From Phycisphaerae bacterium (lineage in GTDB: Bacteria; Planctomycetota; Phycisphaerae; Phycisphaerales; SM1A02), in NCBI GenBank assembly GCA_018656645.1, contig JABHZL010000115.1, positions 1 to 34,856 on the forward strand: a stretch of DNA of 34,856 bases. The letters run 5' to 3'. The translations under genes and the position numbers were made by a program. Numbering within the stretch: the stretch's first letter is position 1; the number at the start of each line of letters is the position of its first letter. Below the pieces are notes generated by a model. That model was not told the DNA's origin. It ran no database searches and saw only the letters and a list, made by a program, of their open reading frames with translations. Shown in pieces: positions 20,388 through 30,314 of this stretch.

Positions 20388-21554
20388 ATGACTACAAGTA
20401 TTTATCTTGATAATAATGCTACGACGAGACCGCTAGAAGCAGTCAACGAAATTATGCAATCTACAATGTCTCAGCAGTGGGGAAATCCATCAAGCATTCA
20501 TCGAATTGGACAAGAAGCTCGTCAACTTGTCGATTTAGCAAGAGAGCAAGTTGCAAAATTGATCAACGCGAATCCATCTGAAATTACCTTTACTTCGGGC
20601 GGGACTGAAGCAGCGAATCTCGCACTTCATTCTGCTTGCCAAGAGCGACCTGATCGAAAACTCATCATCACAAGCCAAATTGAACATGCGGCTGTTGCAG
20701 AAATGGCTGACGCATTGTGTGATCGAGGTATTGAAGTTATTCGAATAAACAATGACGAACATGGAGTAATGTCCATGCAAGAACTTGAAACTTTGTTGCA
20801 AGATCGAGCGAACGAAATAGCCGTTGTGTCGTTAATGTGGTGTAACAACGAAACCGGTGTCATTGAACCAATTGAAAAGGCAAGTCTTCTTTGCAAAAAA
20901 TACGACGTTCTTCTTCATTCTGATGGAACGCAGTGGGTTGCTAAGATGCCAGTAGATGTGCGCGATGTACAAATCGATTTCCTATCGTTTGCATCGCATA
21001 AATTCCACGGTCCAAAGGGGATTGGTGCAATTTACACAAAAGAAGGTATTGTAATTTCACCACTTGTATTAGGCGGTCCACAAGAACGTAGACGTAGGGG
21101 GGGAACTGAAAATGTTCCAGCAATTGCTGGTTTTGGTGTTGCCTCCGAAGCCGCCTTATCATGGTTGAATAAAGCAAATGTTGATTTAATGATTAAGTTG
21201 CGTGACGATTTTGAAATGCAACTAAAAGAGACTATTCCACAAATAAAAATTAATTCAAGTGGTGCACCTCGCGCATGGACAACATCGTCTGTTGCATTTC
21301 CTGAGATTAAAGGTGAACTTTTATTACTCATGCTCTCAGAGCGAGGCGTGTACGCATCTTCTGGTTCAGCATGTTCTAGCGGCGCGTTCAAAGAATCTGC
21401 TGTCATTGCTGCACTTGGTGATCAAGATGGAGAGTGGGGCACTGTTCGTTTTAGTTTTGCAAGGACGACAACACATGAAGAGTTGTCGCAAGCGGTTCAA
21501 ATTATCTCCGAGGCGACGCAAAAGGCATTGGAAGTGATGGCTTCTACTGCATAA
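20388..21554 (+). CDS. Cysteine desulfurase (NifS/IscS type)
   Basis: This PLP enzyme removes sulfur from L-cysteine for Fe-S clusters and thiolated tRNA. The 388 residues start with IYLDNNATTRPL and include SGGTEAANLAL (PLP phosphate loop), NNETGVIEPI, and the PLP lysine in SHKFHGPKG. RRRGGTENV follows, and the catalytic Cys sits in SGSACSSGAFK. The short active-site loop resembles the NifS/IscS group rather than SufS. No IscU-like scaffold gene lies beside it. It follows the MFS gene by 10 bp, and tRNA-Lys begins 21 bp after its stop, so the tRNA may be processed from this transcript. Confidence 0.95.
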   Translation: MTTSIYLDNNATTRPLEAVNEIMQSTMSQQWGNPSSIHRIGQEARQLVDLAREQVAKLINANPSEITFTSGGTEAANLALHSACQERPDRKLIITSQIEHAAVAEMADALCDRGIEVIRINNDEHGVMSMQELETLLQDRANEIAVVSLMWCNNETGVIEPIEKASLLCKKYDVLLHSDGTQWVAKMPVDVRDVQIDFLSFASHKFHGPKGIGAIYTKEGIVISPLVLGGPQERRRRGGTENVPAIAGFGVASEAALSWLNKANVDLMIKLRDDFEMQLKETIPQIKINSSGAPRAWTTSSVAFPEIKGELLLLMLSERGVYASSGSACSSGAFKESAVIAALGDQDGEWGTVRFSFARTTTHEELSQAVQIISEATQKALEVMASTA

Positions 21555-21575: not shown

Positions 21576-21648
<73 letters not shown>

Positions 21649-21653
21649 TTCTA

Positions 21654-21686
21654 AAAAAAAGGGAAACCAAGGGCTTGCCTTTTTTT
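21654..21686 (+). terminator. Terminator after tRNA-Lys
   Basis: AAAAAAAGG pairs with CCTTTTTTT, with an inner AAGG/CCTT option and loop GCTTG. The T-run makes this a good terminator for the upstream gene and tRNA. Confidence 0.65.
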
Positions 21687-21788
21687 CTACATACCCTGTG
21701 TGCCGTAGCAAGGCTACGACTGCGTGATTTGCAAGGCAAACCCCGCCAATCCTTCTGTCCACTGGTCGGCTCTTTGCCGCCCAACGGA

Positions 21789-21814
21789 TCGAGTCTTGCA
21801 CAGGGCATTCTAAA
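21789..21814 (+). repeat. 26-bp direct repeat of the tRNA-Lys 3' end, copy 2
   Basis: This is an exact copy of 21630-21655 (CGAGTCTTGCACAGGGC plus flanks) without the rest of a tRNA around it. It resembles an attachment-site half left by an integrated element. Confidence 0.88.
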
Positions 21815-21957
21815 CCAGTGATTGACAGCAGAGTGTTCTCTGCTAACTATGGGCGAAGAAAAAACGAAAATTAATGTAATAGCAAAGCTATTGCAAAGGG
21901 CGATTTTGATCTTATTATTGGACTGATATGTTTTTATTACAAATAAACGTAATATTC

Positions 21958-21985
21958 TTGCTCAAAGTGTCGTTAAAGGTATACT
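21958..21985 (+). promoter_or_regulatory. Probable promoter of the Cys-rich/efflux gene block
   Basis: TTGCTC (21958-21963), a 16-bp spacer and TATACT (21980-21985) form a fair -35/-10 pair. Transcription would start about 21992, leaving almost no leader before the ATG at 21996. Confidence 0.45.
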
Positions 21986-21995
21986 AAAGAACTTG

Positions 21996-22436
21996 ATGTA
22001 TAAACGACACAGCATCTTAACGAACATGATTGCCATAGTGCTTACAGTTACTATGTCAATTTGTTGTTGCATTGTCAAATCTGCAACCGGTTCAACTACT
22101 TCATGTTGTACTGTTAAAATTGCTGAGACAAATTCATGCAATCAGCAGACACCGTCTTGTTGTCAAAAGCAACCAGCCCCCGAAGAGGATTCAGAAAACG
22201 AACCCTGTTGCGAAGAATGTAGTTGTACTACGGTAGGCATAATCCTTACGCAAAATTGGACCCCACCAATTGATTTGATTGGTGTTGATGCTCCAACTCT
22301 ATTCTTTACAATAAATATTTTTGGAGTAGATCGGCATGTTGCCTATGCAATACACGGCCCTCCTAAATATGACCCACATATTCTTGGGTACAGCAGCGCG
22401 CCTTCCATGCGCGGTGTAGTCATTCTCCAAGTCTAA
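21996..22436 (+). CDS. Cys-rich small exported or membrane-anchored protein
   Basis: The 146-residue product begins with a positively charged stretch and a hydrophobic helix (MIAIVLTVTMSICCCIV), so it is probably exported or anchored. A Cys-rich segment follows with CCC, SCC, SCC and PCCEECSC (about residues 24-78), then a neutral C-terminal part with no motif I know. Clustered Cys next to efflux genes suggest metal binding, like the small Cys/His-rich proteins beside copper or RND operons, but I recognise no family. I start at the ATG at 21996; an ATG at 22026 is possible. A CACAGC/GCTGTG hairpin (22459-22476) lies between it and the outer-membrane factor gene, 72 bp downstream. Confidence 0.65.
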   Translation: MYKRHSILTNMIAIVLTVTMSICCCIVKSATGSTTSCCTVKIAETNSCNQQTPSCCQKQPAPEEDSENEPCCEECSCTTVGIILTQNWTPPIDLIGVDAPTLFFTINIFGVDRHVAYAIHGPPKYDPHILGYSSAPSMRGVVILQV

Positions 22437-22508
22437 ACCACATAACATTACTTTCGCTCACAGCTATTTGGCTGTGATTGTTGATGTCTATGTGTAAAGG
22501 ACTTTTAA

Positions 22509-23843
22509 ATGGTACTACATTCGAGCAGAACTACTCTGCAAATAACAATTCAATTCATTATTGCGACATTTTTAGCTAGCTGCGCATCATCTATTGACGC
22601 CACCAAAGATGTGAAGTCAGCAACCATGCTTGCAACTACCCGTTTACCAGTGCTGATCGATGAGTCGCTCGTCTGGAACCCAAGCGAGCCACTGTCCGTC
22701 GATGCCGCTATCTCGTATGCAATCATGCACGACGCACTTTTGCAACGCGACATGGCAATCATCGTTCAGCGACGCGCTGAAATTGCACAAGCTGAGTTGC
22801 CAGCTAACCCAACATTCTCTGGCGCTTTTGGAGTAGCAATTGATGGATTATCAGGTGCGCCAATCATCATGCAAGGCATGCAGGGTTTGAGTTGGTTATG
22901 GACAAGACCAGATCGAATTGCCGCTTCCGAGCAAACTTTGCAACAAGCCATACTAACTGCGGCAAACCGCACAGTGATTATTGTTGCCGAAGTTCGCACT
23001 GCCCACGCTGAAGTTTCAAAGGATATGCTCCATGTTCAAGCTGTTGAATCGAGTGTATCGCTTTCAAACAAAGCACTTGAAATAACTTCAGAACTTGTTT
23101 CCGCTGGCGAAGCCTCTTTAGATGAAATTGACGAAGTTACACTTGCATTAGAAAAAAACAAACACCTCTTGCTCTCGAAAATAAAGACACTGAAACTTTC
23201 AAAATTGAAGTTACTTGAAGTGATGGGCTGCCCTGATTACATTGAGTTGGTTTCGATTATTCCTAACGATTTTAGTGCCCAGCCGGCCGATTTCGATGAA
23301 CGAACCCTGCTTGAACTAGCTATTAAAAATCGACTAGATTTAGCAACGAAACGCGCTGTTGTTCAGCAGATGTCAGCTGAACTTGGTCTTGCTAATCCAC
23401 CGCTTCTCTCGGGAACGATTGGTTTCAATGAAAACTTTGTCGATCGACAAGCAATTATGGGTGGTGGTTCAGTGACGATTGCGCTAGATGGTGATGCAAA
23501 GGAGGCAATTGCAGATTCAAAACTCAAACAAGCAGAATTGAATTACATCGATGCCCTTCGAACAGTGCAGTATGAAGTTCGCTCAACACTTGAACAATAC
23601 TTAACAGTTCAAGAGCAATCTGAAGTGATAGATCCTGCGATCATTGCAACAACAAATATGAGACTTCGTCGTGCAAATGAGATGTTTCATCGTGGGGAAC
23701 TCCATCCACTCTCACTTATCAATTTTCAGCAAGAAGTTCTAGATGCAAACATCCTTGCTATTGAAGACAAACTTACACTTGCCACAACACGATTTAATCT
23801 TGAACTCGCTGTAGGTGGTACTTTTCGAGATATAACACAATGA
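22509..23843 (+). CDS. TolC-family outer-membrane efflux lipoprotein
   Basis: The 444 residues begin with a signal peptide and lipobox (FLASCAS, Cys at about 25), so the protein is acylated like CusC/OprM. The rest is two long helical repeats characteristic of the TolC family: DAAISYAIMHDALLQRDMAI at the first repeat, and a second one with TLLELAIKNRLDLATKRAVV and NMRLRRANEMFHRGELHPLS. It would be the outer-membrane channel for the adaptor and ABC permeases that follow. AAAGGA lies about 8 bases before the ATG. Its last codons overlap the adaptor gene by four bases (ATGA). Confidence 0.9.
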   Translation: MVLHSSRTTLQITIQFIIATFLASCASSIDATKDVKSATMLATTRLPVLIDESLVWNPSEPLSVDAAISYAIMHDALLQRDMAIIVQRRAEIAQAELPANPTFSGAFGVAIDGLSGAPIIMQGMQGLSWLWTRPDRIAASEQTLQQAILTAANRTVIIVAEVRTAHAEVSKDMLHVQAVESSVSLSNKALEITSELVSAGEASLDEIDEVTLALEKNKHLLLSKIKTLKLSKLKLLEVMGCPDYIELVSIIPNDFSAQPADFDERTLLELAIKNRLDLATKRAVVQQMSAELGLANPPLLSGTIGFNENFVDRQAIMGGGSVTIALDGDAKEAIADSKLKQAELNYIDALRTVQYEVRSTLEQYLTVQEQSEVIDPAIIATTNMRLRRANEMFHRGELHPLSLINFQQEVLDANILAIEDKLTLATTRFNLELAVGGTFRDITQ

Positions 23844-25081
23844 ACACACAAAAAATTCCACAACCAAAAAAACAATTTGTCACTCGACTGGGTATTCCTC
23901 TTGCAATCATCTTGACAACCGTATGCATACTTATCTATGCAAGCTGGGAATCAATCCGACCTGTCATAACGGTTGAAGCAGTCACAGTTGTGATGAGGAA
24001 TGTCGAAACCAGCACTCCGCAATCAACAACAGCAGAGCAGGGATCAATTGTGCAAGCACCAGGTTGGGTAGAAGCAGAGCCATTTTCTATCTTTGCTGGA
24101 GCTCTTACTGAGGGCATCATTGAATCTATACTTGTTCTTGAGGGTGATGTAGTTGAAAAAGGACAACCAGTTGCGAAACTTATTTCTGACGATAATAAAT
24201 TGGTATTAAAGGCAGCTGAAGCAACCGAGTCGCTTTGGATTGGCAAACTCAAGGCAGCAAATGCAGAGATGCTAGAACTTGCCGATGAATACAAACGAAA
24301 AAAACCGCTTGCAGAATCTGGCGCACTTGCCCAAGGACCAGTTGAACGACTTCGACATCGACAGATGGCAGGAGAAGCAAATATAGCTATCGCTCAAGCG
24401 TCATTACTCGAAGCAAGCACGGCAAAGGAAGCAGCCCAGCTTGCTCTTGATCGATGTGTTGTTCAATCACCAATCGATGGAGTTGTCATGGAACTTCTTG
24501 CATCACCTGGATCCGTAATTCGTTTTGGTGGTAGTGAGCACTCCACACACATCTTGCATTTGTATGACCCAACGCAATTGCAAGTTCGGGCTGATGTTCC
24601 GTTGTCTGACGCCTCCCGCGTTGGTGTTGGGCATCCTGCTCAAATTATTGTTGATGTCTTACCCAACATATTATTTGAAGGTGAAGTATTACGATTCGTT
24701 CATCGTGCAGATCAACAGAAAAATACTGTTGAGGCAAAAGTGAAAATAATAAATCCGTCTCCACTTCTCAAGCCTGATATGCTTGCTCGAGTCAAAATCC
24801 TACAACCAACAAGAGAAGCAGATGATAATGAAACATGGACAGAGCAACATGTTTTTATTCCAAAATCTGCGATTGCAAATATTGCAAATCCTGCTGTGTG
24901 GGTTGTTGCTGACATACACAAAGGAATTGGGAATGCACAACTTGCGACACTCGTCCTTGGTGAACAAGAATTCGATGGCTGGATTGAAGTTTTATCAGGT
25001 CTTTCAACTGGCGATCGAATCATTACAAGCGATATCAACTTTAAACAAGGCGATGTCGTTCAAATTTTAGGAGGTCAATAG
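23840..25081 (+). CDS. Periplasmic adaptor (HlyD/MacA-like membrane fusion protein)
   Basis: The 413-residue protein has one N-terminal membrane anchor (LGIPLAIILTTVCILIYA). A biotinyl-lipoyl-like half motif follows (GIIESILVLEGDVVEKGQPVAKL), then a helical hairpin (about residues 125-205), the second lipoyl half (DRCVVQSPIDGVVMELLASP) and a beta-barrel domain. It has no lipobox. It would connect the inner-membrane ABC permeases to the TolC-type protein encoded just upstream. The ABC ATPase gene begins 1 bp after its stop, with AGGAGG shortly before the start. Confidence 0.88.
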   Translation: MNTQKIPQPKKQFVTRLGIPLAIILTTVCILIYASWESIRPVITVEAVTVVMRNVETSTPQSTTAEQGSIVQAPGWVEAEPFSIFAGALTEGIIESILVLEGDVVEKGQPVAKLISDDNKLVLKAAEATESLWIGKLKAANAEMLELADEYKRKKPLAESGALAQGPVERLRHRQMAGEANIAIAQASLLEASTAKEAAQLALDRCVVQSPIDGVVMELLASPGSVIRFGGSEHSTHILHLYDPTQLQVRADVPLSDASRVGVGHPAQIIVDVLPNILFEGEVLRFVHRADQQKNTVEAKVKIINPSPLLKPDMLARVKILQPTREADDNETWTEQHVFIPKSAIANIANPAVWVVADIHKGIGNAQLATLVLGEQEFDGWIEVLSGLSTGDRIITSDINFKQGDVVQILGGQ

Positions 25082-25082
25082 A

Positions 25083-25766
25083 ATGACTCTCATTGAATGT
25101 AAAAATGTAACAAAACATTATTACCGTGGTACAGAACAAATCACACCATTGAAAAATTTGAACCTCACCATCGACCGAAGTTCGTTTGTTGCACTTATGG
25201 GTCCCTCTGGTTCTGGTAAAACAACGTTGTTGAATTTAATTGCCGGCATCGACCGTCCTAGTGAGGGTGAACTTACCATAGAAGGCACTCCTATTCACAC
25301 GCTTGGGCGAAATAAATTAGCTCAGTGGCGATCAGAACATATTGGTTATATCTTCCAACTGTATAACCTCATACCTGTCCTTACTGCTTACGAAAATGTG
25401 GAACTCCCACTTCTATTGCATTCTCTCTCGAGGAAGGAGCGGCACCAACGAGTTTCACACGCTCTTGATGTTGTTGGGATTAGTGATCGGCACGAACATT
25501 ACCCTCGCCAACTTTCCGGTGGGCAAGAGCAACGAGTTGCGATTGCACGAGCTATTGTGACTAACCCAACCATCTTGCTTGCTGACGAACCAACAGGTGA
25601 CCTCGACCTTGAGACAGGTACTTCGATTATGGATTTGCTCAAAGAGTTACAAACAAATCAAGGGCAAACAATAGTCATGGTGACGCATGATCCCCGAACG
25701 ACTGATTGGGCAAATACCGTATTGCATCTTGAAAAAGGTCAACTCATAGAGCAGGTGAAAACATGA
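25083..25766 (+). CDS. ABC transporter ATP-binding protein (MacB/LolD type)
   Basis: The 227-residue ATPase has Walker [10 protein letters not shown], a Q-loop in [19 protein letters not shown] (typical of the MacB/LolD group), signature [14 protein letters not shown], Walker [13 protein letters not shown] and the H-loop MVTHD. The signature has E where most relatives have Q (SGGQQQRV). It powers the two FtsX-like permeases that follow. Its end overlaps the first permease start by four bases (ATGA). Confidence 0.96.
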
Positions 25767-26920
25767 GAATGATTCGAGTTATCTCAACTGTTTTAAAACA
25801 GATCAAACGATCGCCAATTCGGACAAGTTTGACACTTGGCGGGATTGCTGTTGCAATGTTTCTCTTTATCATGGTTGAATCTATGCGGACTGGCGTGAAA
25901 GCCGCAACCGAAATTACTGCTAACGATACAACATTGGTTGTCTATCGAGAAAATCGATATTGTCCTTTCTCAAGTCGCCTACCTCAATATTATGAAGATC
26001 GTATTGAACAAATAGATGGTGTAGTAAGTGTTGTTCCAATAAAGGTTCATGTTTCTAATTGCGGCGCATCACTAGATGTTGTGACGTTTCGTGGTGTCCC
26101 ACGTGAATCAATTAAGCACGCCTTGGCTAAGGACGGCGTCATTGTTGATGGTTCCATTGAGGCGTGGGAAAGACGTAGTGATGCAGCAATTGTCGGTTCT
26201 GGCCTTGCAAAACGACGTGGTATAAAAGTTGGTGACCGATTTTCTGCAGCGGGTATTGAAGTATTTGTTGCAGGCATCCAAGAAACGGACCAATCACAAG
26301 ATAAAAATGTTGCTCTAGTACAACTACCGTTCCTTCAGGAAGCTGCTCGTAAAGGGGGAACAGGAACAATTGTGACGCAATTCAATGTACAAGTTAATAA
26401 TCCAAATGAACTAGATCGTATTGCATCCTCTATTGATAAAACATTTGCACATGATGAGCATCCAACCTCAACATTTCCAGAAAAGGCATTCGTTGGTCGA
26501 GCTGCTCGCGATATTGTGCAACTTTCTGAAGTTGCCGGGCTCCTTGCATGGGGCGCACTTGCCGCTGTATTCGCATTAGTTGCAAACGCAGTTGTACTCG
26601 CCATGCGTGATAGGGTTCGCGACCACGCCGTATTACAGACACTGGGATACACGGGTTGGTTAATTGGCTGGATGGTGCTTCTAGAGGGTGCGTTCATTGC
26701 ATTAGCAGGTGGCATTATTGGTGGTATCGCAGCGTTCGTGGCTGTGCAACTAGGTCAATTCACTATGACGATGGAAGGCGTAAACATAGAAATCGCAAGT
26801 GATCCAACTGCTGCCATCGTAGGGGTTGCACTTGCTCTTGCACTTGGCATGTTTGCAGCAATGATTCCTGCACTCCGTCTTGCTCGAACAGACATCGCAT
26901 CCTGTTTTAGGGCTGTGTAA
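25763..26920 (+). CDS. ABC transporter permease, FtsX/MacB type (first)
   Basis: The 385 residues have an N-terminal helix (SLTLGGIAVAMFLFIMVESM), a periplasmic domain of about 220 residues, and three C-terminal helices (about 255-280, 300-330 and 350-375). This is the usual four-helix FtsX plan. The periplasmic part contains two Cys (RYCPFSS and SNCGAS) that could form a disulfide or bind a ligand. The C-terminal PALRLARTDIASCFRAV is the conserved coupling end. MacB-type permeases push substrates from the periplasm outward by shape change rather than through the membrane. A second permease follows after 12 bp. Confidence 0.9.
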   Translation: MRMIRVISTVLKQIKRSPIRTSLTLGGIAVAMFLFIMVESMRTGVKAATEITANDTTLVVYRENRYCPFSSRLPQYYEDRIEQIDGVVSVVPIKVHVSNCGASLDVVTFRGVPRESIKHALAKDGVIVDGSIEAWERRSDAAIVGSGLAKRRGIKVGDRFSAAGIEVFVAGIQETDQSQDKNVALVQLPFLQEAARKGGTGTIVTQFNVQVNNPNELDRIASSIDKTFAHDEHPTSTFPEKAFVGRAARDIVQLSEVAGLLAWGALAAVFALVANAVVLAMRDRVRDHAVLQTLGYTGWLIGWMVLLEGAFIALAGGIIGGIAAFVAVQLGQFTMTMEGVNIEIASDPTAAIVGVALALALGMFAAMIPALRLARTDIASCFRAV

Positions 26921-26932
26921 GAAAGATAATCA

Positions 26933-28093
26933 ATGAAAATATTACCCTTTGAATATGCAACTCGAAATCTCGGCCGCTCCCCGGTTCGTTTACTCCTTAC
27001 GGTCTTTGGAAGTGGACTGGTTGTTCTTCTTGTCATGATTGCCGGCAGTTTCATGGTAGGTATGCAGGCTACTTTAGATGTTAGTGGTTCGAATAATAAT
27101 ATTATGCTTTTAGGCGCTGGCAGTGTGGAAAGCGTTGAACGAAGTGAGGTCGGTATGGATACCGCAGGCATTGTTGCAGGAAGTATCGATGGGTTTCGTT
27201 CTCGTGCAGGAGTCGAAGGCATTTCGTCCGAAATCCATGTCCAAATGCCAATTCTCGTTGATGGTGAAGATAGGCTTATACTTATTCGTGGCATACGACC
27301 AGAGGCTTTCCTCGTACACGATCAGGTGAGTATTACTACAGGTCATGCACCTCGCAACGGTCGAAATGAACTTTTAGTTGGCAAACTTGCAGCACAAACG
27401 CTTGGCTACAATGAAGCAGTAGATGCAGTTGGTAAAAAAGTTATGCTTGATGATGATGCGTACACCATTTCAGGTGTACTCGAAGCTGGCGGTGGCATTG
27501 CTGAGGGAGAAATATGGGCGTCGCTTATCGACCTCCAAATAACAACCCAACGCGATACGCTCTCGTGCATCATTGTGTCTCTTGACCAAGCGAAAGCCAG
27601 TGATCTAGACGTATTTGCAGCGAGCCGAATTGATTTAGAGCTTGCTGCAATTTCGGAAAACGAATATTTTGCAGCCCTTTCACAATTTTATAAGCCAATC
27701 GAAATGATGGTAGTGATGACATGCATCATGATTGCTGTTGGCGGCATGCTTGGGGGATTTAATTCAACATACGCTGCGTTTGCAAGCCGTGTTAGAGAAG
27801 TCGGGACGCTGCAAACACTTGGTTATAAACGGAGCGCCATAGCTCTCTCGTTAGTTCAAGAATCAATTCTTTCTGCATCTATTGGCGCCATCATTGCATG
27901 TATGATTTCGATGCTTGTCCTCGATGGTTTTACAATGCGGTTTTCAATGGGAATATTTACTTTGTTTATGACTCCCAAAGTTGTTACACTTGGCATCGGA
28001 TCTGGTTTGATGCTAGGTATTATTGGCGCAATTGCCCCAGCCATTCGCTGTTTACGTTTACCAATCCCAGAAGCGCTTCGCGCATCAGAATAA
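26933..28093 (+). CDS. ABC transporter permease, FtsX/MacB type (second)
   Basis: The 386-residue protein has the same four-helix plan as the preceding permease: N-terminal YATRNLGRSPVRLLLTVFG, a periplasmic domain with NNNIMLLGAG, and three C-terminal helices ending in PAIRCLRLPIPEALRASE. The GTLQTLGYKRSAIALSLVQE coupling helix is typical of FtsX permeases. The two permeases differ in sequence, so the transporter is probably a heterodimer sharing the single ATPase. The lipoprotein gene starts 12 bp after its stop. Confidence 0.9.
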   Translation: MKILPFEYATRNLGRSPVRLLLTVFGSGLVVLLVMIAGSFMVGMQATLDVSGSNNNIMLLGAGSVESVERSEVGMDTAGIVAGSIDGFRSRAGVEGISSEIHVQMPILVDGEDRLILIRGIRPEAFLVHDQVSITTGHAPRNGRNELLVGKLAAQTLGYNEAVDAVGKKVMLDDDAYTISGVLEAGGGIAEGEIWASLIDLQITTQRDTLSCIIVSLDQAKASDLDVFAASRIDLELAAISENEYFAALSQFYKPIEMMVVMTCIMIAVGGMLGGFNSTYAAFASRVREVGTLQTLGYKRSAIALSLVQESILSASIGAIIACMISMLVLDGFTMRFSMGIFTLFMTPKVVTLGIGSGLMLGIIGAIAPAIRCLRLPIPEALRASE

Positions 28094-28105
28094 TAAGGAA
28101 CTCAA

Positions 28106-28678
28106 ATGAAACAAATATTCACAATTTTATTAGTAGCCACACTCAGTGCATGTGGCGGAAAAGAAGAAAGCAACGTACAGCCAACAACTGCCTCCCTAGA
28201 ATTACCTAGTTCTTTCTTTACAGAAACTCGCCCAAACGATGTTAAAGATCTTGTTGAAGTAAAGAAGACTGCAAAGAAAGGTGATGAGGTTACATTTCTT
28301 GCTCGAATCGGTGGTCGAAAAGATGCTTCATTTGTAAAAACACTCTCGATGATGATAGTTGCAGACCCGTCACTTATTTCGTGTGAACTCATGGGTGAAG
28401 AAGAACATTGTGCTACACCCGAAGACTATTGTTGTGAAGATCCAGCACTTCGTACACAGGGACTAGGCACAATTCGTTTTATGGATGAAAAAGGCGAGCC
28501 ATATTCTTTTTCAATTGAAGGCAGCCATGGGCTTGAAACTTTAAAATATGTAGTTGTCGCAGGTAATGTCGTTGACATAAACGATAAAGGGCTATTCATT
28601 GTCGATGCAAGTAAAGTTTGGGTTGGTGGAAAACCATCGTTTGGCAATAATAGACAGGGAAGTAAGGAAGGCAGCTGA
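28106..28678 (+). CDS. Lipoprotein with conserved-looking Cys cluster, last gene of the efflux block
   Basis: The 190-residue protein has a signal peptide with lipobox (LSACGG, Cys at about 16). The middle part (FLARIGGRKDASFVKTLSMM, then DPSLISCELMGEEEHC and TPEDYCCEDP) resembles a planctomycete family I remember with a TPWDYCC motif; I cannot name its function. Four close Cys (one at SCEL, one at EEHC, a CC pair) suggest metal or thiol binding. The rest is an OB-like beta domain (GTIRFMDEKGEPYSFSI, VVVAGNVVDINDKG). It is likely an extracytoplasmic partner of the ABC efflux system. The last seven or eight codons and the stop lie inside a tRNA-Lys-like sequence, so the C-terminus may have been altered by recombination. 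Confidence 0.8.
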   Translation: MKQIFTILLVATLSACGGKEESNVQPTTASLELPSSFFTETRPNDVKDLVEVKKTAKKGDEVTFLARIGGRKDASFVKTLSMMIVADPSLISCELMGEEEHCATPEDYCCEDPALRTQGLGTIRFMDEKGEPYSFSIEGSHGLETLKYVVVAGNVVDINDKGLFIVDASKVWVGGKPSFGNNRQGSKEGS

Positions 28679-28716
28679 CTCTTAATCAGCTCGGTTGCAG
28701 CCGAGTCTCTCTGTCT
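28653..28716 (+). pseudogene. Degenerate tRNA-Lys-like sequence
   Basis: A 20-bp stretch (GCAGCTGACTCTTAATCAGC, 28671-28690) is identical to the tRNA-Lys(CTT) anticodon arm at 21599-21618. Around it a 7-bp acceptor-like stem pairs GACAGGG (28653-28659) with CTCTGTC (28709-28715, one GU pair), and CTCGG/CCGAG forms a T-arm-like hairpin. The flank TCTAAAA also resembles the real tRNA's flank. The D-arm is missing and the T-loop is wrong, so it is not a working standard tRNA. Its 5' half lies inside the lipoprotein gene. Confidence 0.65.
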
Positions 28717-28845
28717 AAAATCCAGACGTCAAGCGATAGCAGGATGTTTTGTAGATCTCAACGAAGATCTGCATGCAGAAAAATATCCATTATTCGCTCA
28801 AAAACTCCTATGTAGAGAAAACCCGAACAAAACCCTATCAAGGGG

Positions 28846-28861
28846 TGACATAATGGTGTCA
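28846..28861. promoter_or_regulatory. 16-bp dyad, possible operator overlapping a -10 box
   Basis: TGACAT-AATG-GTGTCA (one T-G mismatch in the dyad) shares its half-sites and spacing with the recA-upstream dyad at 17554-17569. It lies 130 bp before the next start codon. CATAAT inside it could serve as a -10 box. Confidence 0.35.
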
Positions 28862-28916
28862 GGGCACTCCCCGATACTACTCAGGCACCGGAAGGGGTTC
28901 CATGGTGGAGAGCCCT
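28861..28916 (+). ncRNA. Candidate structured 5' leader RNA
   Basis: AGGGC-A-CTCC (28861-28870) pairs with GGAG-A-GCCCT (28907-28916), nine pairs with one A-A mismatch. An inner hairpin, CACCGGAA-GGGG-TTCC-(AT)-GGTG, lies inside. The element begins a few bases after the CATAAT box and about 75 nt before the ribosome site of the next gene. It matches no riboswitch class I know. Confidence 0.35.
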
Positions 28917-28990
28917 TCAAAGTGCAAATGCGTGAAATATCTGAAATGTCAAATAGTTTCATGGAACGTGAAGCACAGAAGGAGTAAACC

Positions 28991-29288: not shown

Positions 29289-30314
29289 ATGATTGGATGC
29301 CCTTACACTTCATCTTCTCAAATGGATGAATTGAAGGACAATGTAGAGCACGCCATTCAGCAAGTGGAAGAGTTATTACCCGCTGAAGCGATAGAGCGAT
29401 TTCGTCTCATTTTAAATAGTGAAGATTACCTTGCTACATTGCGAAGTTTCTCTCAACCTAAACCAGTTGTATTTCGAGTGAACACGCTTCGCTCAACGAT
29501 CGAGGAAGTGTTAGAAGAAATTGAATCTGCCGGGTTAGTTGTTTCATCAATCCCATGGTGCCCACTAGGGTATAAGTTAGAGAGCGGAACAATTCGTGAT
29601 TTACAAGCACTTCGATGTGCTAAAGATGGGTGGATCTACATCCAAGCAGCATCAAGCATGGCTGCTGCACACGCGATGCAACTCAAAGAGGGTATGAGTG
29701 TGCTTGATATGTGCGCAGCGCCTGGAAGTAAAACATCTCAGCTAGCAGCAGCACTAAACAATACCGGAATCATGGTAGCGAATGATCGAAGCAAAAAAAG
29801 ACTGTATCGGTTGAGAGAAATTTTACAGTGGCAAAATGTGATAAACGTTGAAGTTCTATGCGGAAGTGGAGAGAGGTTGGGCAAATCACATGCAGATTGT
29901 TTCGACCGTGTTCTTGTGGATGTCCCATGTAGCGGGGAAGGGCGATTTAGATTGGATAGGCCAATTCGCATAGAAAAGTGGAATGTTCAGGCAATTCGGC
30001 GGCTTGCAAAATTACAAGAGCAGTTGTTAATAGCTGCACTTCGATGCGTTAAAGTTGGAGGAAAGGTAGTGTACTCCACGTGCACGTTTGCCCCAGAAGA
30101 AAACGAATGTGTTTTGGATCGTGTACTAACACGTCATTCTATTGCGGCAAAAGTTCTGCCGTTTCCAAAAGAACTGGTACCAACTTCTTCAAGAACATCA
30201 CTTACAGAGTGGAAGGGAAAAAAGTTTGTACATGATCTAAGCGGCGCAATTCGCATTGTTCCAGACAAGAACACGACAGGTTTTTTTGTTGCTGTGCTCG
30301 AACGCGAACACTGA
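29289..30314 (+). CDS. RNA (cytosine-5) methyltransferase, RsmB/NOP2/Sun family
   Basis: The 341-residue protein has an N-terminal PUA-like/helical part (PVVFRVNTLRSTIEEV) and the SAM-binding motif LDMCAAPGSKTSQLAA. DVPCSGEGRFRLD contains the release Cys, and YSTCTFAPEENE the nucleophilic Cys. These enzymes methylate C5 of cytosine in rRNA or tRNA. It lacks the NusB-like N-terminal domain of RsmB and the long C-terminal extension of RsmF, so the target site cannot be named. The start is ATG 29289; an ATG at 29322 is also possible, and neither has a clear ribosome site. It converges on the WYL regulator gene. Confidence 0.9.
   Translation: MIGCPYTSSSQMDELKDNVEHAIQQVEELLPAEAIERFRLILNSEDYLATLRSFSQPKPVVFRVNTLRSTIEEVLEEIESAGLVVSSIPWCPLGYKLESGTIRDLQALRCAKDGWIYIQAASSMAAAHAMQLKEGMSVLDMCAAPGSKTSQLAAALNNTGIMVANDRSKKRLYRLREILQWQNVINVEVLCGSGERLGKSHADCFDRVLVDVPCSGEGRFRLDRPIRIEKWNVQAIRRLAKLQEQLLIAALRCVKVGGKVVYSTCTFAPEENECVLDRVLTRHSIAAKVLPFPKELVPTSSRTSLTEWKGKKFVHDLSGAIRIVPDKNTTGFFVAVLEREH

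Follow-up and report, generated by a model that had tools for sequence, protein, structure and literature searches.

Several bacterial systems have been described in which cargo DNA is associated with a tRNA gene. For example, fGI-2 of 'Ca. Methylopumilus' lies at a tRNA-Lys(ctt) gene, with the last 20 bp of the gene recurring and cargo ranging from 330 bp to 42 kb, according to the parts of the report drawn on here (PMC10872708). The same excerpts refer to tycheposons, in which tRNA genes bound the cargo of streamlined aquatic bacteria (via PMC10872708). In the cited sections on Alteromonas, additive islands use a conserved tRNA as the target for cassettes, heavy-metal efflux clusters included, and one island ends in a repeated copy of the final 52 nt of a tRNA (PMC4119200). 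In Islander, as far as the quoted description goes, an intact tDNA with a displaced downstream 3' fragment in the same orientation marks such islands (PMC4383910). Phage Ms6, in the extract available, has a 26-base T-loop core, similar to the 26-bp repeat described below.

Among papers returned by literature searches for tRNA islands in Planctomycetota or Phycisphaerae, no title or abstract opening describes such a hotspot. The DNA considered here, referred to as the window, is a stretch of 34,856 nucleotides from the 2.0-Mb MAG of an uncultured member of the Phycisphaerales (G000). It was compared with the genus relatives G001–G012 and with further genomes of the family.

A repeated tRNA-Lys 3' end

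The window carries an intact tRNA-Lys(CTT) gene on the forward strand (21576–21648), which was called by ARAGORN and scores 70.7 bits against Rfam RF00005 and 106.8 bits against a genus tRNA-Lys model built from 14 sequences. Its 3' end belongs to an exact 26-bp repeat, both copies of which are on the forward strand. Copy 1, which is attL-like, occupies 21630–21655, and copy 2, which resembles an attR-like displaced tRNA 3' end, occupies 21789–21814. The copies are identical at 26/26 positions and 159 bp apart, with 133 bp between them. The repeat spans nt 55–73 of the tRNA, which take in the T-loop and the 3' strands of the T-stem and the acceptor stem, and runs on for seven bases past the gene. 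The sequence-only reading had it cover the T-arm, the acceptor end and seven flanking bases; this is correct for the acceptor 3' strand and the flank, but the T-arm is included only in part, as the repeat starts in the T-loop at nt 55.

The expected number of chance pairs of exact 26-mers in the window is 1.3e-7 to 2.2e-7. When the 2.0-Mb genome was searched for a 21-base core of this sequence, allowing up to three mismatches, only the two copies were recovered. The 133 bp between the copies are also single in the genome, the next match being 25 nt long (E 0.04). Copies of a tRNA 3' end of at least 12 nt within 1 kb were found in 2 of 73 distinct tRNA contexts. All of these contexts have 200 bp or more of downstream sequence, and the set is biased towards tRNA-Lys and this family. 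Both cases are tRNA-Lys(CTT) genes of the genus, one in the window and the other in G011. G006 provides a third case, which falls outside this count because its contig begins inside the tRNA.

The remainder of the tRNA had been read as absent at copy 2, and this was borne out. Copy 2 gave no match with the genus tRNA-Lys model, with filters off, and a shuffle test detected only the 3' end. Specifically, when the 99 bp upstream of copy 2 were compared with tRNA nt 1–54, 962 of 1000 shuffles scored as well, and 936 of 1000 were as good for the region upstream of the corresponding copy in G006. The same test applied to tRNA relics gave 2/1000 for G011, 0/1000 for G004 and 0/1000 for window positions 28640–28740. 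The similarity past the 3' end by which a decayed tRNA is recognised is missing from copy 2, which was rejected as a decayed second tRNA on the model and the shuffle test together.

A related explanation would make copy 2 the 3' remnant of a tandem second tRNA-Lys gene, the rest of which has decayed as in other relics of the same island. Such relics are common there, occurring in G009, G005, G001 and G011, at window position 28652 and, via alignment, in G004, and the 3' end of the G011 relic is nearly intact (31 nt, 97%). Nevertheless, this origin is improbable for copy 2, given the shuffle results in both the window and G006 and the missing model match. In addition, decay that spares exactly 26 bp, seven of them non-tRNA, would itself be unlikely.

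The 159-bp unit and its distribution

Copy 1 is followed on the forward strand by a hairpin spacer (21656–21690) made up of an A-run, a stem and a T-run, which is not common to G006 and in which a terminator scan did not call a terminator. Copy 1 and this spacer (21620–21679) match the second copy in G011 and the sequence after it. Next comes a non-coding stretch of 98 bp (21691–21788, forward strand), at the start of which the acceptor end appears inverted (ATACCCTGTG). This stretch is homologous to G006, with 76% identity over 96 bp, and is better kept than three neighbouring genes, for which the DNA identity between G000 and G006 is 67–69%. The layout in G006 is alike, consisting of tRNA-Lys, the homologous stretch and an exact 23-bp copy of the 3' end, 188 bp apart. 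There, copy 2 leads directly into the leader on the RsmF side, without further cargo between.

Among 181 family genomes, G000 and G006 are the only two in which the 98-bp stretch was found at length; G009 has a 29-bp partial match, located elsewhere. The unit was therefore not obtained as a conserved part of the tRNA-Lys locus in distant relatives free of integrated DNA, being absent at length from 179 of the 181 genomes, but the G006 unit does stand without further cargo. This distribution is patchy with respect to relatedness. The RsmF protein of G000 is 83% identical in amino acids to that of G011, 79% to that of G004 and 59% to that of G006, yet the assemblies of the nearer two, G011 and G004, are without the stretch, a comparison that calls for caution since NifS was not found in either.

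Local duplication, by slippage or short-homology recombination, could have copied the tRNA end and its flank with no mobile element involved. The shortness of the repeat, at 26 bp, favours this, as do the bases past the tRNA, which are equal between the copies within a species and differ between species (TTCTAAA in G000, TTGAA in G006). However, two distant species share the 98-bp stretch as homologous DNA, and it has no source copy elsewhere in the genome; DNA must therefore have been added and not only duplicated. Duplication as the sole event is thus unlikely.

The unit from 21691 to 21814 may also have been kept as a structured RNA or processing element, in which the anti-acceptor motif ATACCCTGTG could base-pair with one or the other tRNA 3' end, thereby influencing tRNA maturation or termination. 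In both species the unit folds better than shuffled sequences (z -3.05 and -3.16, with 2/200 and 0/200 shuffles as good), and in 3 of 28 predicted pairs both partners differ from one sequence to the other. The 76% identity, against 67–69% for adjoining coding DNA, points the same way. This comparison involves two sequences only, however, and their single-sequence folds differ. Together with the 179 of 181 family genomes that have no match at length, and an Rfam scan in which no family but tRNA reached the gathering score, this makes a conserved RNA function quite unlikely. On the same scan, the unit was rejected as a known RNA family.

An assembly artefact, in which a metagenome assembler fused the versions of two strains at the repeat, would be in keeping with the contigs of relatives that end inside, at or up to 16 bp from tRNA-Lys (G004:C87, G005:C42, G005:C74 and G006:C26). 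Against this, G006 was independently assembled with the same layout and homologous 98 bp, and an artefact is very unlikely.

Reverse-strand open frames of 78 and 115 aa span the tRNA and the unit. For the 78-aa frame, 68 residues had no Pfam match at E 10, and when the tRNA-Leu and tRNA-Val integrases of this genome (see below) served as tblastn queries on the island and the G006 unit, the one match was at chance level and lies in cargo (E 0.37). An integrase remnant on the reverse strand is therefore not supported. Four patterns, two of the tRNA end and two of the 98-bp stretch, had no exact match in IMG/VR. These patterns and a 182-bp query returned no phage or plasmid match either, and a phage or plasmid relative of the unit was rejected.

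The NifS–RsmF interval

The tRNA-Lys gene lies between two core genes. On the left is a NifS-like aminotransferase class V gene of the cysteine desulfurase type (20388–21554, forward strand; Pfam PF00266, genus synteny), and on the right an RsmF-type rRNA methyltransferase gene (29289–30314, forward strand; Pfam PF01189, synteny). Core synteny resumes before RsmF, at the leader of a small ORF (28792–28934, forward strand), which is 85–87% identical in DNA to G011 and G004. This leader has relatives in several genus genomes and is a possible regulatory RNA. The cargo-free order, seen in L057 and G016, is M32 peptidase, AnmK, epimerase, RecA, NifS, tRNA-Lys and RsmF. The spacing from NifS to RsmF is ~0.65 kb in L057, ~1.15 kb in G016 and ~0.5 kb in G007. 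In G007, NifS adjoins RsmF (L232:3012-3524), and no tRNA-Lys was found between them. In the window, 7.4 kb separate NifS from the small ORF before RsmF, and these hold the tRNA-Lys, the 159-bp unit and a seven-ORF stretch with an efflux operon.

At least two tRNA-Lys(CTT) copies or fragments are present on interval contigs in 8 of the 13 genus genomes (G000, G001, G003, G004, G005, G006, G009 and G011). The relic in G004 was identified by alignment, with no shuffle of 1000 as good, and is absent from the results of the model search. G002 has one tRNA-Lys(CTT) in the interval and G007 has none. In G010 and G012, the NifS-side contigs that were read showed no tRNA-Lys(CTT), and NifS was not found in G008; all three genomes have weak matches.

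The cargo itself changes from genome to genome. G009 carries a 187-aa ORF, G001 a sulfotransferase with TPRs, G005 a DegP-like protease and G011 an ORF with a type III restriction enzyme endonuclease domain, while G000 and G001 carry the efflux operon. This varied cargo within the genus indicates that the locus has taken up DNA repeatedly. The interval thus combines conserved core flanks around variable cargo, repeated tRNA copies or 3' fragments at the joints, and horizontal cargo. By this organisation it is an additive flexible genomic island at tRNA-Lys.

Other recurrent sequences were observed in the relatives. A GTGTGTCCTAAAGCCTGC-type sequence follows tRNA-Lys near nt 70 twice in G005 and also in G009 (L044:3487 and 4828; L048 near 12181, reverse), and AAACCACTT recurs inverted at the two ends, as judged by eye. 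Several full tRNA-Lys copies are preceded by a shared upstream stretch, as if modules carry their own promoter and tRNA-Lys. The element ends common to G005 and G009, after tRNA nt 70, are not seen in the window and so do not account for the 159-bp unit.

Efflux cargo and a decayed tRNA-Lys

The cargo of the window shares a forward-strand stretch with G001 (21869–28662), with 91.8% DNA identity over 6.8 kb. By Pfam, its products are an outer-membrane efflux protein (OEP), a HlyD-type adaptor, an ABC ATPase and two MacB/FtsX-type permeases, alongside two small proteins without a Pfam match. In G001, the cargo is on the same contig as NifS and a decayed tRNA-Lys. DNA identity between G000 and G001 reaches 91–93% for OEP and the first MacB-type gene, compared with 67–75% for the core genes NifS, MFS and RecA. 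This difference shows that the efflux cargo has passed horizontally between species.

The first permease is present in 10 of the 13 genus genomes. In the other eight genomes that have it, no tRNA was found around the gene within 8.4–15 kb per genome. The G008 copy of the cargo has 86% DNA identity to the window over 5.9 kb; NifS was not found in G008 for a core-gene comparison.

A decayed tRNA-Lys follows on the forward strand (28652–28717), scoring 22.5 bits with the genus model (E 8.8e-5). Its best-kept part is the anticodon arm (28671–28708). The ORF at 28106–28678 extends a few codons into it. Past the last cargo ORF, the window enters tRNA-Lys sequence from about nt 24, while G001 enters sequence that is found, by eye, before other tRNA-Lys copies. 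The decayed gene lies directly behind the efflux operon, and its anticodon arm is like that of a variant tRNA in G003. The sequence-only reading had set the anticodon-arm copy at 28671 apart as a separate matter. Instead, judging from its model match and position, the fragment is a decayed tRNA-Lys that marks the far end of this cargo and so belongs to the same island.

Integrases elsewhere in the genome

Each of the 13 genus genomes has a couple of tyrosine recombinase matches resembling one conserved gene pair (one of them partial in G008), which we take to be XerC and XerD. G000 has two extra tyrosine recombinase genes (L236:4110-5483 and L237:115-1401), the 3' ends of which overlap tRNA-Leu(GAG) and tRNA-Val(TAC) on the opposite strand. 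These genes likely represent integrative elements.

The 3' end of tRNA-Val recurs alone on another contig of this genome, G000:C117 (L243 ~1504–1524), as an exact match of 21 nt from the T-loop to the last base, where no tRNA was called. The 128 bp that start with this fragment (the fragment and 107 bp) are 87% identical to the tRNA-Leu end together with the end of its integrase gene. Of the integrase, only the last 44 aa remain (68% identity, E 3e-12), followed by an unrelated ORF. C117 therefore carries an isolated tRNA 3' end next to what is left of an integrative element. This case is not proof for tRNA-Lys, because no integrase of that site is known and because tRNA-Leu is without a second copy; a search for a second tRNA-Leu 3' end, as an att control, did not find one.

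Origin of the repeat

The 26-bp repeat is probably an attL/attR-type scar of integration at the tRNA-Lys 3' end, within an additive flexible genomic island. Several observations lead to this reading. The repeat is exact and runs from the T-loop through the tRNA 3' end, copy 2 is a tRNA 3' end alone, and G006 has the same layout. The unit is patchy, occurring in G000 and G006 even though G000 is closer to G011 and G004. The site is a hotspot with changing cargo, and this cargo is 91–93% identical to G001 where core genes are 67–75% identical. Finally, two further tyrosine recombinase genes of this genome overlap tRNA-Leu and tRNA-Val, and the tRNA-Val case on C117 slightly strengthened the integration reading and lowered its rivals a little.

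In the proposed sequence of events, an integrative element would have brought a copy of the tRNA-Lys(CTT) 3' end and undergone strand exchange within the T-loop/acceptor part of the chromosomal gene. The copy on the element would restore the tRNA gene, while the host's own 3' end would be pushed downstream and become copy 2. Nearly all of the element would later have been lost. The present 133 bp, with the hairpin and the 98 bp bearing the inverted acceptor-end motif, could then be a leftover element end, or a stripped element that lacks an integrase of its own. This event would be one layer of a NifS–RsmF island in which several cargo modules and tRNA-Lys copies have come and gone. We infer from the present layout the tyrosine integrase that would have made the joint, the element end that remains and the order of events. 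Recombination between copies 1 and 2 would leave an intact tRNA-Lys.

Several findings count against integration. The island sequences read showed no integrase at this locus, the four PF00589 matches of the genome all lie off this contig, and no integrase is known for tRNA-Lys here. The interval is only 133 bp, and no empty site for exactly the 159-bp unit was seen. Species-specific flanks are not what a foreign attP would predict unless its core matched each host, although flanks that match within a species could arise if one copy were repaired from the other or if the host's own end were duplicated. The spacer hairpin of G000 cannot be aligned with that of G006, the island does not stand out in GC content, and the searches of IMG/VR and of phage and plasmid sequences, as well as that for a second tRNA-Leu 3' end, were negative. 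The original suggestion of an attL/attR pair, or of repeated integration at one tRNA, is thus upheld as regards a 3'-end fragment in the expected orientation and on the expected side, at a locus that repeatedly took DNA. It is not upheld as regards an integrase, the length of the interval or an empty site.

A bolder and rather improbable reading is that the hairpin and the 98-bp unit are not debris and form a minimal protein-free element of ~130–190 bp, a tRNA-specific counterpart of a MITE. Such an element would enter the tRNA-Lys 3' end across species using a tRNA-targeting recombinase in trans, duplicating the host tRNA end and flank.

Comparison with known systems

An integration scar in an additive tRNA-Lys island is of a known kind, and what is new is the host lineage and phylum. 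At 159 bp, the unit falls well short of a whole island. As described in the cited excerpt, Islander recognises a fragment of the tDNA 3' end downstream of an intact tDNA and in the same orientation, as seen here; however, the 159-bp interval fails both its integrase filter and its length filter of 2–200 kb (PMC4383910). The Alteromonas islands extend from a single cassette to >110 kb in the sections drawn on, whereas here the 26-bp pair bounds only 133 bp (PMC4119200). Unlike tycheposons, as outlined in the excerpts on fGI-2, no tyrosine recombinase was found near tRNA-Lys, where most relatives' contigs break in the interval (PMC10872708).

As far as the same excerpts describe it, fGI-2 of 'Ca. 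Methylopumilus', whose host is a streamlined aquatic bacterium, is similar in its tRNA-Lys 3'-end copies and variable cargo (PMC10872708). It differs in belonging to another phylum and in the state of its tRNA copies, since the window combines an intact tRNA with a 3' copy and a decayed tRNA, and the genus has decayed full-length copies. The present comparison places a tRNA-Lys cargo hotspot, with traces of what appear to be several generations of insertion, in an uncultured Phycisphaerales genus with genomes of ~2 Mb, and shows that an efflux operon has moved between species at that hotspot.
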